Part shown: positions 4,438-10,330 of the stretch, one piece after another
Layout: each line of letters opens with the position of its first letter
How positions within the stretch are numbered: the first letter of the stretch is position 1
DNA from: Streptomyces clavuligerus
Lineage (GTDB): Bacteria > Actinomycetota > Actinomycetes > Streptomycetales > Streptomycetaceae
Assembly: GCF_005519465.1 (NCBI RefSeq)
Contig: NZ_CP027858.1
Span: 2,480,001-2,544,000 of the forward strand
Reading direction: 5' to 3'
Length of the DNA stretch: 64,000 bases
The notes under the pieces: model-generated
Seen by the model: the letters and a program-made list of their open reading frames with translations, nothing else
Database searches by the model: none
What the model was told of the DNA's origin: nothing
Position numbers and translations under genes: made by a program

Positions 4438-5880
4438 TCAGTCCGGGGTGCGGATGTCGCGCCAGGCCGCCCCGAGGGCGTCGGCGACCTCGTAGGAGGT
4501 GATGGGGGTGGACACGGCGGCGGCGCGGCGGGCGGCGAGGCCGTGGAGGTAGGCGGCGCAGGAGGCGGCGTCGAGCGGGGGCAGACCGGCGGCGAGGAGG
4601 GAGCCGGCGAGGCCGGAGAGGACATCGCCGCTGCCCGCCGTCGCCAGCCAGGGCGTTCCCATGGGGTCCGCCCGCACCGGGAGCCGGGGGTCGGGGGCCG
4701 CGATCAGGGTGGTCGAGCCCTTGAGCAGGACCGTCGCCCCGTAGCGCGCGGACAGTTCGCGCACCGCGTCCAGCCGGCCCGCCTCCACCTCGGCACGGTC
4801 GCGGCCGAGCAGCGCCGCCGCCTCCCCGGCGTGCGGGGTGAGCAGGGTCGGCGCGGTCCTGGCGCGGACCGCGTCGGGGTCCAGGAGCCGCAGCCCGTCG
4901 GCGTCGACCAGCACCGGCACATCGGAGGCGAGGACCTGGCCCACCGTGTCCTCGTCGTCGCCGAGGCCCGGCCCGACGACCCACGCCTGCACCCGGCCCG
5001 CCTTCACGGGCGGCCCGGCGTGCACCAGCGCCTCGGGGAAGCGGGCGACCACGGCGGCGCCCTCGGGGCCCACGTACCGCACCGCGCCCGCTCCGCCGCG
5101 CAGCGCGCCCGCGACCGTGAGGACCGCGGCGCCCGGGTAGCGCGCCGACCCGGCGGCGACGCCGACGACCCCGCGCCGGTACTTGTCGCTCTCCCCCGAC
5201 GGCTCCGGCAGCAGCACCGCCACATCCGGGTGCTGGAGCGACTCCACGTCGGGGACGGACGGCAGATGGGGGCCGAGCCCGATGTCGACCAGCCGCACGG
5301 TCCCCGCGTGCTCGCGCGCCGGGTCGATCAGCAGCCCCGGCTTGTCGGTGCCGAAGGTGACCGTCGCGTCCGCCCGCAGGGCCTCCCCGCGGACCTCGCC
5401 GCTGTCCGCCTCGACGCCGCTGGGCAGATCGACCGCGACGACGACCGCGCCGGAGCCCCGGGCCGCCCGGGCCACGGGCACCGCCGCCGGGCGCAGCCCG
5501 CCCGTGCCGCCGATGCCGGTGATCCCGTCCAGCACCAGATCGGCCCCGCTGAGCACCGCGAAGGGGTCGTCGGCGACCCGCCCGCCCGCGGCCTGGAACG
5601 CGGCGAGCCCGGCGGCGTGCGCGCGGTCCGGCGCGAGCAGCACCGCGTGCACGGCCGCGCCCCGGCGGGCGAGCCGGGCACCCGCCCAGAGCGTGTCGCC
5701 GCCGTTGTCGCCGCTGCCGACGAGCAGGACGACCCGGGCCCCGTACACCCGGCCGAGCAGATCGGCGCAGGCGGCGGCGAGCCCGGCGGCGGCGCGCGCC
5801 ATGAGCGCCCCGTCCGGGAGCCGTGCCATCAGCTCGGCCTCGGCGGCCCGGACCTTCTCCACACGGTGAGCGGTACGCAT
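4438..5880 (-). CDS. nnr: Bifunctional NAD(P)HX epimerase and ADP-dependent dehydratase
   Basis: Repairs hydrated NADH and NADPH: the N-terminal YjeF epimerase interconverts R- and S-NAD(P)HX, and the C-terminal ribokinase-like domain dehydrates the S form. The N-terminal domain (about 1-215) has GSGDNGGD and VAVDLPSGVEADSG. The C-terminal domain (about 225-480) has the YRRGVVGVAAGSARYPGAA segment, LTPHAGEAAALLG and the nucleotide-site motif ATAGSGDVLSG. The length of 480 aa matches the fused bacterial enzyme. ATG at 5880. The gene heads the minus-strand run towards alr and tsaE; its upstream neighbour is the divergent iron-box pair. Confidence 0.95.
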   Translation of the reverse strand: MRTAHRVEKVRAAEAELMARLPDGALMARAAAGLAAACADLLGRVYGARVVLLVGSGDNGGDTLWAGARLARRGAAVHAVLLAPDRAHAAGLAAFQAAGGRVADDPFAVLSGADLVLDGITGIGGTGGLRPAAVPVARAARGSGAVVVAVDLPSGVEADSGEVRGEALRADATVTFGTDKPGLLIDPAREHAGTVRLVDIGLGPHLPSVPDVESLQHPDVAVLLPEPSGESDKYRRGVVGVAAGSARYPGAAVLTVAGALRGGAGAVRYVGPEGAAVVARFPEALVHAGPPVKAGRVQAWVVGPGLGDDEDTVGQVLASDVPVLVDADGLRLLDPDAVRARTAPTLLTPHAGEAAALLGRDRAEVEAGRLDAVRELSARYGATVLLKGSTTLIAAPDPRLPVRADPMGTPWLATAGSGDVLSGLAGSLLAAGLPPLDAASCAAYLHGLAARRAAAVSTPITSYEVADALGAAWRDIRTPD

Positions 5881-6064: not shown

Positions 6065-6106
6065 TTGACGAACCCTCACGAGCAAACTTAGGTTTGCCTT
6101 ACCTAA
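6065..6106 (+). promoter_or_regulatory. Promoter overlapped by an iron box (IdeR/DmdR operator)
   Basis: A -35 hexamer TTGACG (6065-6070) is followed after 17-18 bases by a -10 TTAGGT/TAGGTT. The -10 lies inside TTAGGTTTGCCTTACCTAA at 6088-6106. This 19-mer matches the DtxR-family iron box (TTAGGTTAGGCTAACCTAA) at nearly every position, with both five-base ends perfect. A second, overlapping inverted repeat, GCAAAC-TTAG-GTTTGC, spans 6082-6097. An operator over the -10 predicts repression by the Fe-loaded regulator and induction in low iron. The transcript would start about 45 bases before the gene at 6152. Confidence 0.85.
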
Positions 6107-6151
6107 GTGGGACGCTGAGCGGCGCCCCACCCATCGAAAGGTGTCCTTTTC

Positions 6152-6724
6152 ATGCGCTCTGCCGCCCGCACCGCCGCCCGAGCCGCCACCGCCGTGATCG
6201 GAGCCGGTGCCCTCGCCCTGGGCCTCGCCACCACCGCATCCGCCGCGACCGCGGGCCGCACCGTCACCGACGGCGGCACCACCTACACCCTCTCGGTGAC
6301 CGCGCCCGGCACGGCCGCCGCGTCCGGGGCCAACATCACGGTGAGCGGCAGCGGCTTCAACCAGTCGCAGGGCATCTACGTGGGCCTGTGCGCCATCCCC
6401 GCGGGCGTCGACACCAACAACCCGGCCACCTGGAACAGCAAGCCGACCCCGTGCCTCGGCGGCCAGGACCAGAACGGCACCACCGGCGCCTCGCACTGGA
6501 TCAACAACGACTGGTACTGGATGTCCCCGAACAACTCCTCCCCCTACACCGCCACAGCGGGCGGCCGGGGCTCCTTCTCCGTGACCATCCACGTCAAGGC
6601 CAAAATCTCCACCGCCGTGAGCTGCGGCCAGAACGGCGTCCGCTGCGCCGTCGTCACCCGCGCCGACCACTTCGACGCGAACGACCGCGCGTACGACGTC
6701 TATGTCCCGGTGACCTTCTCCTGA
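6152..6724 (+). CDS. Secreted neocarzinostatin-fold protein, iron-box controlled
   Basis: The 190-aa protein has a Sec signal peptide (Arg-rich start, hydrophobic core, cleavage near TASA-AT at residue 31) and a single beta-rich domain. Four cysteines at 80, 101, 158 and 165 form two spaced pairs: GLCAIP...TPCLGG and SCGQNGVRC. This pattern and the GSGF/IYVGLC and CAVVTRADH segments match the Ig-like fold of the neocarzinostatin apoprotein family, where two such disulfides line a ligand cleft. No chromophore biosynthesis genes are nearby. Given the iron box upstream, haem, siderophore or other iron-ligand binding at the cell surface is a reasonable guess, but is inference. It is followed after three bases by a larger relative. 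Confidence 0.8.
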   Translation: MRSAARTAARAATAVIGAGALALGLATTASAATAGRTVTDGGTTYTLSVTAPGTAAASGANITVSGSGFNQSQGIYVGLCAIPAGVDTNNPATWNSKPTPCLGGQDQNGTTGASHWINNDWYWMSPNNSSPYTATAGGRGSFSVTIHVKAKISTAVSCGQNGVRCAVVTRADHFDANDRAYDVYVPVTFS

Positions 6725-6727
6725 CCC

Positions 6728-8872
6728 ATGCGCACCCACACCACAGGACCCCTGAACACACCACGGGCCGTGGTGGCCACGCTGCTGCTCGCGGCGGGGC
6801 TCACCGCCGCGGGCCCGGCGCGGGCGGACACCCCCGGGGAGGCCACCGGGCCCACGGGGCAGAAACTGACGGTCTCCGCCACCGCGGACCTCGACCCGGC
6901 CGGACAGAAGGTCACCGCGACCGGCTCGGGCTACGACCCCGCCAAGGGCGTCTACCTCGCCGTCTGCGCCCTCCCCGAGAAGGCGGGCGAAGCACCCGGC
7001 CCCTGTCTCGGCGGCACCGACATGTCCGGCACCTCGGGTTCCTCGTACTGGATCTCCAACAACCCGCCGCCCTACGCCAAGGACCTCGTCAAACCGTTCA
7101 CCGTGCAGGGCGGCAAAGGCGGCTTCACCTTCGAGCTGACCGTCAAGGCCAAGGACAGCGGCGCCGACTGCACCCAGCGGGCCTGCGCCGTGGTCACCCG
7201 GGCGGACCACACCCACGGGGCCGACCGCGAACAGGACGTCGTCGTCCCGATCGCCTTCCGCGGCGGTGAGGCCCCCGCCCCGGCGGTCCCCCCGGGCACC
7301 GTCCGCCACGACGAGGTCCGCCGCTTCCCCGCGGGCGGCGCGCTGGACATCGAGGTGGACCCGGCCGCGGGCCGCCTCTACGTCGGCACCGGCGGTGAGC
7401 GGCCCCTGCTGACCACGTACGACACCGCCACCGGCGAACGGATCGGCGCACCCGTCGAACTGCCCGCCGCCGCCGGGGCGCTGGCGCTGGACGCCGGCTC
7501 CCGGACCCTGCACCTCGCGCTGGGCGACCGGATCGCCACCTACGACACCCGGACCGGCCGGGTCACCGACCACCGCACCCCCGTATCGCCGTCGGCCGTC
7601 CAGCACCTGGGCGCCGACCCCGGGGCGGACCTGCTCTACGTCGGCACCAGGGACGGAACGGTGACGGTCTACGACACCACCTCCTGGACGGCGGTCGGCG
7701 CACCGGCCGGGCTGGGCCTCCCGGCGGGCGCGCTCGCCGTGGACACCCGGACCCGCCGGGCGTACACGGTGCACATCGGCCAGGCGACCGACCCCGCGAC
7801 CGGGAAACCCGGCTTCGTCAACCTGCTCCACGGGGTCGACGGCACCACCGGGAAACGGGTGAGCACCGTCGAGCTGGGCCGGACCGCACTCGGCAGCAGG
7901 GGCCTGGCCGTCGACGCCGCGAACGGCACCGCGTATGTCGCCAACATGGCGGCGGGCACGGTCTTCACCGTCGACCTGGCGGCGGGGAAGGTCACCGGCT
8001 CGACCGAGGTCGGCGGCAACCCCAAGAGCCTGGCGGTCGACCCCACGACCGGCACCCTCTACGCGGGGCAGACCACGGCGGGCACCGTCGCCGTCGTGGA
8101 CACCGCGCGCAGGAGGACCGTCCAGACGCTGGAGACCGGGGGCGGCCCGGAGGCGCTGACCGTCGACGAGCGGGCGCACACCCTGTACACGCTCTCCACC
8201 GGCACCGGTGAGGTCGTCCGGAGCGAACGCCGGATCTCCCCGGCGGTCACGGCCCAGCCGCGGCGGAACGTCTCCGTGACGGCCGGGAAACAGGCCGTGT
8301 TCACGGTCGCGGGCGAGGGAACGCCCGCGCCGCGGATCGGCTGGGAGGTCAGCTCCGACCTCGGGGACACCTGGCGTCCCGTCGTCGGCGCCGCCGGGGC
8401 GGAGCTGGAGTTCCGGGCCACCGCGGAACACGACGGCAACCGCTACCGGGCGGTGCTGTCCAACCCCGTCGGCTCGACGCGCACCGCCTCCGCCGAACTG
8501 TCCGTCCTCGCGCCGCCGGGCCCGGGGGGACCCGGCGGACCGGAAGACCCCGGCACACCGGCCGTACCGGGCAGACCGGGCGGTGACGGGGGCCCGGCCG
8601 GTCCGGACGGCCCTGACCGCCCCGGAGGGTCCGGCGACACCGGCGGAGCGTCCGGCGGGACACCGGGCACCGACGGCAGCCCCGGCACGGGCGGCCCGGT
8701 GGACAGCCCCGTGGGCGGCGGCGCCTCGGGCGGAGCGGGTGACGGCGGCCCCGTCACCCACGGCAACCTCGCCGCCACCGGGATGCCGCTGCTCCCCTTC
8801 GCCCTCGGGGCCGCCGTCCTCGTCGCCCTGGGCGCGGCGGCGCTGATCCCGCGCCGCAGAGTCCGCGGCTGA
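6728..8872 (+). CDS. Sortase-anchored surface protein: neocarzinostatin-like domain, beta-propeller, Ig domain
   Basis: The 714-aa protein is modular. A signal peptide ends near ARAD (residue 34). Residues about 45-178 repeat the fold of the upstream protein, with Cys80/Cys93 and Cys148/Cys153. Residues about 190-500 contain YVTN-type propeller repeats (LAVDPTTGTLYAGQ and similar). An Ig-like domain covers about 500-592, followed by a Gly/Pro-rich collagen-like spacer (about 596-680). The C-terminus is a sorting signal: LAATG at 681-685, a hydrophobic helix and RRRVRG. LAxTG is the class E sortase motif of Streptomyces, so it should be covalently attached to the wall. Only three bases separate it from the first gene, so the pair is probably one iron-regulated transcript. 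Confidence 0.82.
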   Translation: MRTHTTGPLNTPRAVVATLLLAAGLTAAGPARADTPGEATGPTGQKLTVSATADLDPAGQKVTATGSGYDPAKGVYLAVCALPEKAGEAPGPCLGGTDMSGTSGSSYWISNNPPPYAKDLVKPFTVQGGKGGFTFELTVKAKDSGADCTQRACAVVTRADHTHGADREQDVVVPIAFRGGEAPAPAVPPGTVRHDEVRRFPAGGALDIEVDPAAGRLYVGTGGERPLLTTYDTATGERIGAPVELPAAAGALALDAGSRTLHLALGDRIATYDTRTGRVTDHRTPVSPSAVQHLGADPGADLLYVGTRDGTVTVYDTTSWTAVGAPAGLGLPAGALAVDTRTRRAYTVHIGQATDPATGKPGFVNLLHGVDGTTGKRVSTVELGRTALGSRGLAVDAANGTAYVANMAAGTVFTVDLAAGKVTGSTEVGGNPKSLAVDPTTGTLYAGQTTAGTVAVVDTARRRTVQTLETGGGPEALTVDERAHTLYTLSTGTGEVVRSERRISPAVTAQPRRNVSVTAGKQAVFTVAGEGTPAPRIGWEVSSDLGDTWRPVVGAAGAELEFRATAEHDGNRYRAVLSNPVGSTRTASAELSVLAPPGPGGPGGPEDPGTPAVPGRPGGDGGPAGPDGPDRPGGSGDTGGASGGTPGTDGSPGTGGPVDSPVGGGASGGAGDGGPVTHGNLAATGMPLLPFALGAAVLVALGAAALIPRRRVRG

Positions 8873-9134: not shown

Positions 9135-9503
9135 TCACCCCTCCGCGATCACCACCGCGGACGCCACCCCCGCGTCATGGCTGAGCGAGATGTGCCAGGA
9201 GCGCACCCCCAGCCGCTCCGCGCACGCCGCGACCGTCCCCGTGACCCGCAGCCGCGGCCGTCCGCCCTCCTCGACATACACCTCCGCGTCCGTCCAGTGC
9301 AGCCCCGACGGGGCACCCAGCGCCTTCGCCAGTGCCTCCTTCGCCGCGAACCGCGCCGCCAGGGAGGCGTCACCGCGCCGCTCCCCGCTCGGCAACAGCA
9401 GCTCCCGACCGAGGAAGAGACGGTCCGCCAGCCCCGGCGTCCGCCTCAGGGACGCGGCGAACCGCTCGATCTCGGCCACATCGATCCCCACCCCAATGAT
9501 CAT
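9135..9503 (-). CDS. acpS: Holo-[acyl-carrier-protein] synthase
   Basis: Transfers the 4'-phosphopantetheine arm of CoA to a Ser of acyl carrier protein in fatty acid (and often polyketide) synthesis. The family signature is intact: Asp8 in [14 protein letters not shown] and Glu56 in [12 protein letters not shown] coordinate Mg2+, and the C-terminal HISLSHD is present. The length of 122 aa is typical. ATG at 9503. It lies 80 bases downstream of the glutaminase-domain gene on the same strand and may be co-transcribed with it. Confidence 0.96.
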
Positions 9504-9583: not shown

Positions 9584-10330
9584 TCAGGGCGCCCCGGCGG
9601 CCGGTACCCCCGCCGCCCGGTACGGAAGCACCTCCACCACGGCACCGTCCGCGTCGGTGACGGACACCCCGTCCCGGCGCACCTCCACCACCCGGCCGTC
9701 GCCCGGCTCCACCACGGACCGGGCCACACCGGCGAGGGCCGCGGCGTCCGACGCGAGAAAGGACTCCCCGTCGCCCACCCCCACCAGCAGCGGCAGCCCC
9801 CGGACCGCGCCCACCAGGACGTCCGGGTCGTCCGCGCCGACGGCGGCCAGGGCGAAGACGCCGTCGAGACGCCCGTACACCTGCCGCATGGCCTCCGCCA
9901 GATCCCCGCAGGAGGAGAAGGACTCGGCCAGCAGATGCGCCACGACCTCGGTGTCCGTGGCGGAGACGAGCGCGTGCCCGCGCCGGGTCAACTCGGCACG
10001 GAGCGCGGCATGGTTCCCGATCACCCCGTTGTGGACGACGGCGACCCGGCCCGCGTTGTCCAGATGGGGATGCGCGTCGGCGTCTCCCCCGCTCTCCCCC
10101 GTGCCCCGGCGGATGTGCCCGACCCCGGTGGAGCCGCTGGGCAGCGGACGCCGGGTCAGCTCCCGTTCCAGCCGCTCCAGCGGGCCCGCCTTCTTCGCGG
10201 TGGCGAGACCCCCGTCGGAGACCACCGCGACGCCCGCCGCGTCGTACTCCCGGTCCGTCAGCCGCTCCAGGCCCTCCCACAGCACTTCGAGCGCCGACCG
10301 GCCGCCGGTGTACCCCACGATTGCGCACAT
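9584..10330 (-). CDS. Stand-alone class II glutamine amidotransferase domain, GlmS-like, isomerase half absent
   Basis: The 248 residues align with only the N-terminal glutaminase domain of glucosamine-6-phosphate synthase (about 610 aa). The nucleophile Cys2 is kept (MCAIVGYTG), as are VHNGVIGNH (oxyanion Asn-Gly), AHPHLD and [11 protein letters not shown]. The HTRWATHG loop is changed to HIRRGTGE, losing the gating Trp and the His, and YRGYDSAG is now DREYDAAG. No SIS (sugar isomerase) domain follows; acpS begins 80 bases later. It may be a decaying copy of a second glmS or a recruited glutaminase or regulator. Codon bias is still normal for the genome, so it is not obviously dead. Confidence 0.8.

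Follow-up and report, generated by a model that had tools for sequence, protein, structure and literature searches.

Results

Two adjacent genes, W1 and W2, lie on the forward strand of a 64,000-nucleotide stretch of the Streptomyces clavuligerus chromosome (NZ_CP027858.1, positions 2,480,001 to 2,544,000; hereafter the window), and we consider here their probable part in haem uptake. W1 (6152-6724) is an open reading frame of 190 amino acids for a secreted protein without an anchor, in which a signal peptide covers, by eye, about residues 1-32 and a neocarzinostatin-like (NCS) domain occupies residues 40-190. Three bases separate its stop from the start of W2 (6728-8872), an open reading frame of 714 amino acids for a wall-anchored, multidomain protein. 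The NCS domain of W2 (6845-7261, residues 40-178) is 41% identical to that of W1 and is followed by a YncE-like beta-propeller (7310-8230, residues 195-501), an I-set immunoglobulin-like (Ig) domain (8246-8506, residues 507-593; PF07679, 26.5 bits against a cut-off of 23.7) and an LAATG sorting motif (8768-8782), after which come a hydrophobic helix and a basic tail. The propeller was recognized by its fold in a search with the whole W2 model, which was informative for this part only; the fold is that of YncE, here one module of a wall protein.

Relatives of the pair were collected as 81 loci, namely the window and the best 80 of 218 confirmed loci, 79 of them from Streptomyces and one (L134) from 'Actinobacteria bacterium OV320'. 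An LAxTG motif was seen in 71 of the 72 W2-type proteins, W2 counted, and a sorting motif in one of 80 W1-type genes. With its C-terminal LAxTG, hydrophobic helix and basic tail, and with seven sortase (PF04203) matches in the genome, W2 has the features of a sortase substrate. Cys80/Cys101 and Cys158/Cys165 of W1 are invariant in an alignment of 75 sequences. An earlier note on this DNA had described two adjacent secreted proteins that share a domain with two Cys pairs, the second anchored through LAATG, and that description holds.

The promoter of the pair overlaps a DtxR/IdeR/DmdR-type operator, or iron box. The 19-bp box, TTAGGTTTGCCTTACCTAA (6088-6106), differs at two positions from TTAGGTTAGGCTAACCTAA and is the sole site with three mismatches or fewer in the window, while ten mono-nucleotide shuffles gave none; genome-wide, there are 11 such boxes on the forward and 11 on the reverse strand, and a reversed control pattern found 0. 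The -35 hexamer TTGACG (6065-6070, forward strand) is set 18 bases before the presumed -10, TAGGTT (6089-6094), which lies within the box and was assigned from the conserved spacing to the -35. Box and -35 are kept over the 81 loci, at several chromosomal sites. A box with at most three mismatches lies between -400 and +60 of an NCS-domain gene in 76 of the 81. By comparison, 25 of the 757 other genes at these loci have such a box, many of the 25 sharing the intergenic region, as do 3 of 680 genes outside the cluster. For L110, L116 and L154, at least, the score belongs to an NCS gene that lies upstream in a longer operon. Among the five loci without a scored box, in two (L122 and L158) it precedes the operon's first gene, in L159 it precedes W1, another gene having been scored, L136 ends at a contig edge, and L173 has no box. 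A TTGACA-like -35 with at most one mismatch stands 16-19 bases before the box-embedded -10 at 69 of 107 homologous boxes, where shuffles lead us to expect 1.4. The earlier note's proposal of an iron-box promoter with its -10 inside the box is borne out by these counts, and iron control of W1-W2 is, as a prediction from sequence, well supported. The passages seen of a paper on S. coelicolor DmdR1 (PMC12161575) and of one on iron in S. venezuelae (PMC6401478) name no such gene, although no search was aimed at expression data under iron limitation.

When the predicted structure of W1 was aligned with known structures, the best rows were members of the neocarzinostatin family, with arrestin and antibody sandwiches following at lower Z; no HtaA or NEAT chain was among the 50 rows listed, which has no bearing on their kinship, and Foldseek gave no match to the model below E 1e-3. 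W1 scores 15.1 bits against PF00960 by hmmscan, where the Pfam cut-off is 25, and a precomputed table lists PF00960.26 for the identical protein P0001. Its matches to sequences in the PDB are weak, and a profile-profile comparison spans only 40 columns. Because W1 falls below the PF00960 cut-off, its fold membership rests on the model, the profile comparison and better-scoring relatives, and on these the neocarzinostatin fold that the earlier note had assigned to it is supported as a prediction.

The domain family has four near-invariant Cys in an order that matches the neocarzinostatin family, which may form two disulfides at the ligand cleft, and a conserved T-R-x-D-H...D-R stretch, whose His in T-R-x-D-H reaches 90% (weighted), a figure partly built into the 80 fetched loci by the use of that motif in the locus search. 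The predicted fold is held in common with the enediyne apoproteins of PF00960 (neocarzinostatin, macromomycin, C-1027 and actinoxanthin), but the W1/W2 family differs from these in a further conserved P-x-P-C-x-G-G, a Trp and the T-R-x-D-H...D-R stretch, and in its iron box, its anchored multidomain forms and its haem-locus context. Against the enediyne apoprotein model NF040680, W1 scores 24.8 bits and W2 18.9, under a cut-off of 86. The family also has weak TIG matches, and some relatives carry tandem copies of the domain beside Ig and HtaA domains. Four loci (L062, L063, L064 and L067) encode a diverged, secreted paralogue of the NCS-like type and of roughly 200 amino acids, with no iron box of five mismatches or fewer in the middle 10 kb of any of them; the copies in L064 and L067 lack the His of T-R-x-D-H.

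Public records name members of the family hypothetical protein, endoglucanase, YncE family, I-set or neocarzinostatin apoprotein domain protein. Endoglucanase is the name given to W2 relatives such as P0133, P0143 and P0145, among others; Pfam and NCBIfam scans of W2 returned no glycosidase family, and the name is likely a misnomer.

The family was found in 45 of 246 Streptomyces genomes (E<=1e-8). Within 7 kb, 36 of the 81 loci have an HtaA-type gene, 34 a PF01497-type gene and 71 a W2-type gene. The common order is a PF01497 gene, a divergent box, an NCS gene, an HtaA gene, a second box, W1, and a W2 with two NCS domains; in L177, FecCD, haem oxygenase and PF01497 genes are followed by box, NCS, HtaA, box, W1 and W2. 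In S. clavuligerus, the HtaA genes, a PF01497 gene and their iron box are 2.47 Mb from the pair. W1 and W2 themselves have no PF04213 (HtaA CR) match at E<=10 by hmmscan. Six of 120 listed proteins (P0217-P0222; P0217 was rechecked) fuse the domain to PF01497, and a separate Streptomyces protein of about 645-670 amino acids, encoded at a locus other than that of W1-W2 (L207, L208 and L210-L215), joins HtaA and PF00960 domains, both over the Pfam cut-offs in all four proteins scanned; all eight of its loci have an HtaA match and an iron box with two mismatches. It is our impression, uncounted, that several carriers of the long locus have weak HtaA matches and carriers of the pair only have strong ones, as if one replaced the other.

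The domain goes with haem import outside Streptomyces too. Matches to its profile occurred in 10 of 396 genomes of a phylum-wide set and 69 of 394 genomes of a class-wide set (26 of 137 genera, Streptomyces included), among them genomes of 1.3-1.9 Mb. We took 48 stretches, eight from seven phylum-set genomes and one from each of 40 class-set genomes, 46 of them outside Streptomyces, and called neighbouring genes with home-made profiles, whose members came in part from most of the first eight stretches. A PF01497-, FecCD-, haem-oxygenase- or HtaA-type gene stood beside the domain or was fused to it in 44 of the 46 non-Streptomyces loci (44/48 overall; L252 and L254, both Streptomyces, and L234 and L260 were without). 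With the first eight stretches left out, haem-uptake-type genes were present in 36 of 40, and 20 control stretches at arbitrary positions in genomes of the same sets had 0. Haem oxygenase-type genes occur in 19 of the 48 loci and HtaA-type genes in 21, ten loci having the NCS and HtaA domains in one reading frame; in 42 a PF01497-type gene is no more than 1 kb from the NCS gene, and in 33 the two are divergent. Pfam confirmed the scanned neighbours except for L184:4885-5523, called as a haem oxygenase and rejected as such, since Pfam shows a TetR regulator. One HtaA-NCS fusion (L178:10633-13266) has a WxL-like stretch below the Pfam cut-off, and the gene after it has a WxL-interacting-protein domain above it.

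Two further comparisons bear on the ligand. Ferrochelatase (PF00762) was sought in 40 genomes, comprising the 33 matches of four small-genome families and seven larger genomes; it was found in ten and not in the other 30, which are all of 1.3-3.1 Mb and fall in three families. None of 16 ferrochelatase-negative loci has HtaA or haem oxygenase, and 14 have a binding protein and permease, although absences are weak evidence in L247, of only 3.2 kb, and in two other loci of 13 kb. HtaA is present at all nine ferrochelatase-positive loci and haem oxygenase at five; the tenth positive genome, that of S. clavuligerus, is outside this count, with HtaA elsewhere and none at the W1 locus. In several of the genomes without ferrochelatase, a short secreted single-domain protein is the sole extra component found beside the importer. 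A domain and importer without haem oxygenase fit a haem cargo, because genomes unable to finish haem need it as a cofactor and have no use for a haem oxygenase. These small genomes are probably Nanopelagicales and similar lineages; PMC10202952 and PMC12381374 describe 'Ca. Nanopelagicales' and Planktophila as haem auxotrophs.

The second comparison concerns the neighbouring binding proteins. Those of L223 and L177 are nearest to PDB entries 5az3 and 5gj3 (E 9.5e-46 and 9.7e-58, respectively), and the best non-haem rows are at E 3.3e-7 and 3e-6; for L223 the order is 5az3 with three variants, then 5gj3, then proteins titled haemin-binding, and L177 gives a similar picture. We take 5az3 to be HmuT of Corynebacterium glutamicum, as is borne out by its His 118, Tyr 217 and Arg 219, which have the spacing of the HmuT ligands and are all kept in L223 and, by eye, in L177. 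PMC4926363 names His141, Tyr240 and Arg242 as these ligands. The earlier note had left the iron-linked ligand as haem or a siderophore; comparative genomics points to haem, which appears to explain the sequence patterns best and which we favour over a siderophore.

In the window, W1 and W2 lie between acpS (9135-9503) and nnr (4438-5880), both on the reverse strand and named by eye, as are the other neighbours (alr, a glmS fragment and ribosomal proteins). The nnr locus was obtained from 19 of 20 genomes without the family: acpS is within 449 bp of nnr in 13, at 1.2-1.4 kb in two, and absent within 1.5 kb in four. Since the two genes are that close in 13 of these 19 loci, the pair looks inserted between them, in agreement with the earlier note's claim that it interrupts a neighbourhood on the opposite strand. 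The arrangement of the window, with acpS and nnr within 7 kb, recurs in 10 of the 81 loci and not in the other 71. Beside acpS lies a glmS-like gene (9584-10330, reverse strand) whose 248-amino-acid product matches residues 1-240 of a 615-amino-acid relative at the same place in L042; a full-length homologue with 46% identity is at G000:C1:4433168-4434982.

Discussion

We consider it likely that W1 and W2 are an iron-repressed, haem-scavenging surface pair with a role in haem uptake. The observed basis for this is the architecture of the two proteins, the conservation of operator and promoter, the modelled fold, the phylum-wide association with haem import, and fusion of the domain to HtaA and PF01497. 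With ample iron, a repressor of the DtxR type (DmdR/IdeR) would cover the -10 region, and under iron starvation W1 and W2 would be transcribed together. W1 would be exported and, as a small unattached protein, would carry haem or a haemoprotein, and W2 would be fixed to the peptidoglycan by sortase through LAATG, its NCS domain receiving or binding the same cargo and its propeller and Ig domain perhaps acting as spacer or docking modules. Haem would then be handed to the HtaA proteins, HmuT-type binding protein and FecCD-type permease encoded at the distant iron-box locus, the transfer presumably running from W1 and W2 to the importer. Direct binding of haem by the domain is suggested by these comparisons with less confidence than a role in haem uptake.

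Several points weigh against this interpretation. The domain family as a whole sits in haem-uptake loci, but the S. clavuligerus pair lies alone and not beside an importer, though its genome is ferrochelatase-positive, and L234 and L260 carry the domain without importer genes. PF04213 was searched in 44 of the 45 carrier Streptomyces genomes, G135 excepted, and four gave no match; two of the four (G049 and G131) have a diverged HtaA gene labelled at the locus (L149 and L146). The ferrochelatase pattern follows a few families rather than many independent events; family f103 holds both states (G774 in one, nine others in the other). No haem-specific NCBIfam name is reached above cut-off by the binding proteins, and the candidate haem His of T-R-x-D-H is missing in some paralogues, its conservation owing something to motif-based selection.

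A bolder proposal is that this domain adds a third type of Gram-positive haemophore domain to NEAT and HtaA-CR. It would bind haem in the cleft that holds the enediyne chromophore in the apoproteins, probably by means of the conserved Asp-His that follows the second Cys pair, and would hand it to HmuT. It would be the minimal haem-capture module of streamlined actinobacteria without ferrochelatase, and the antitumour apoproteins would have branched off late from an ancient fold for carrying tetrapyrroles. We put this forward tentatively, as an idea that could well prove wrong. Another proposal, itself a sub-reading of haem uptake and compatible with our main interpretation, is that the domain binds no haem of its own and is an Ig-like docking module for haemoproteins, HtaA or HmuT within the uptake machinery. 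The arrestin and antibody resemblance, the weak TIG matches and the tandem copies beside Ig and HtaA domains speak for docking; however, the lone secreted protein beside the importer in ferrochelatase-less genomes is what a carrier would look like, the four Cys are near-invariant and the T-R-x-D-H...D-R stretch is conserved, with the above caveat of motif selection, and known members of the neocarzinostatin fold carry hydrophobic ligands. We regard docking as rather less likely than not.

We think it unlikely that the pair works instead with a receptor for ferric siderophores, or for some other cargo of the FecCD type such as cobalamin. Siderophores and B12 are also among the cargoes of the PF01497 and FecCD families, and both permeases and binding proteins give unspecific NCBIfam results, in which BtuC, FhuB and FecC models rank highest; but such a cargo fits poorly with the haem oxygenase- and HtaA-type genes in so many loci, with HtaA in the same polypeptide, with binding proteins nearest to HmuT-type haem receptors, or with the keeping of domain and importer in ferrochelatase-less genomes. 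Less probable again is that W1 and W2, in common with other sortase substrates in mycelial actinobacteria, are wall-structure or morphogenesis factors whose regulation by iron is incidental: W2 does carry a sorting signal, and passages of PMC13251363 place a neocarzinostatin-like sortase-substrate candidate, CwpG, among Actinoplanes wall proteins, yet the operator is conserved, the domain goes with haem loci, and it is present in genomes of 1.3-1.9 Mb. An enediyne carrier or self-protection protein, suggested by the fold and the weak NF040680 match, is most improbable given a score far under the cut-off, neighbours read as acpS, nnr, alr, the glmS fragment and genes for ribosomal proteins, the iron box and the phylum-wide haem context.

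A haem-uptake role for W1 and W2 has parallels in known systems. The NEAT/Isd proteins of the Bacillota follow a common logic, in which secreted and wall-anchored small beta domains hand haem to an ATP-binding cassette importer; the sorting signal of the W2 family is LAxTG and differs from those of Isd proteins. The HtaA/ChtA CR haemophores and HmuTUV of the corynebacteria are, like the W1/W2 family, secreted or surface actinobacterial proteins, and NCS-domain and PF04213 proteins share loci and sometimes a polypeptide; nevertheless, the HtaA CR is another domain family. According to passages of PMC12494546, the CR domain binds haem through an axial Tyr and the NEAT fold differs from the CR fold.

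The domain profile also matches ThiX of C. glutamicum over 119 positions (E 1.5e-10), with the Cys pairs and Asp-His kept. By this match ThiX, though named for thiamine, belongs to the haem-locus domain family; it is a single lipoprotein on a respiratory complex, unlike W1 and W2. PMC8795186 describes ThiX (PDB 7qhm chain M) as a subunit of the bcc-aa3 supercomplex, a lipoprotein whose soluble domain is not resolved in the structure and whose enzymatic activity is unknown. A search for ThiX with heme in PubMed Central (PMC) gave nothing beyond that paper. If the domain is indeed a third haemophore, ThiX would carry haem in the respiratory supercomplex.

What is new here is the haem context of the neocarzinostatin-like domain: in the PMC literature searched, to which this claim is limited, we found no publication that joins neocarzinostatin with HtaA or places the neocarzinostatin fold in haem or iron uptake. 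Actinobacterial haem uptake has so far been described through HtaA-CR domains and HmuTUV, and a second domain family now appears in the same operons. If this domain carries haem, a large family without a function would gain one, a haem source would be suggested for genomes without ferrochelatase, and the origin of the enediyne carriers would be recast, with a concrete prediction for ThiX.

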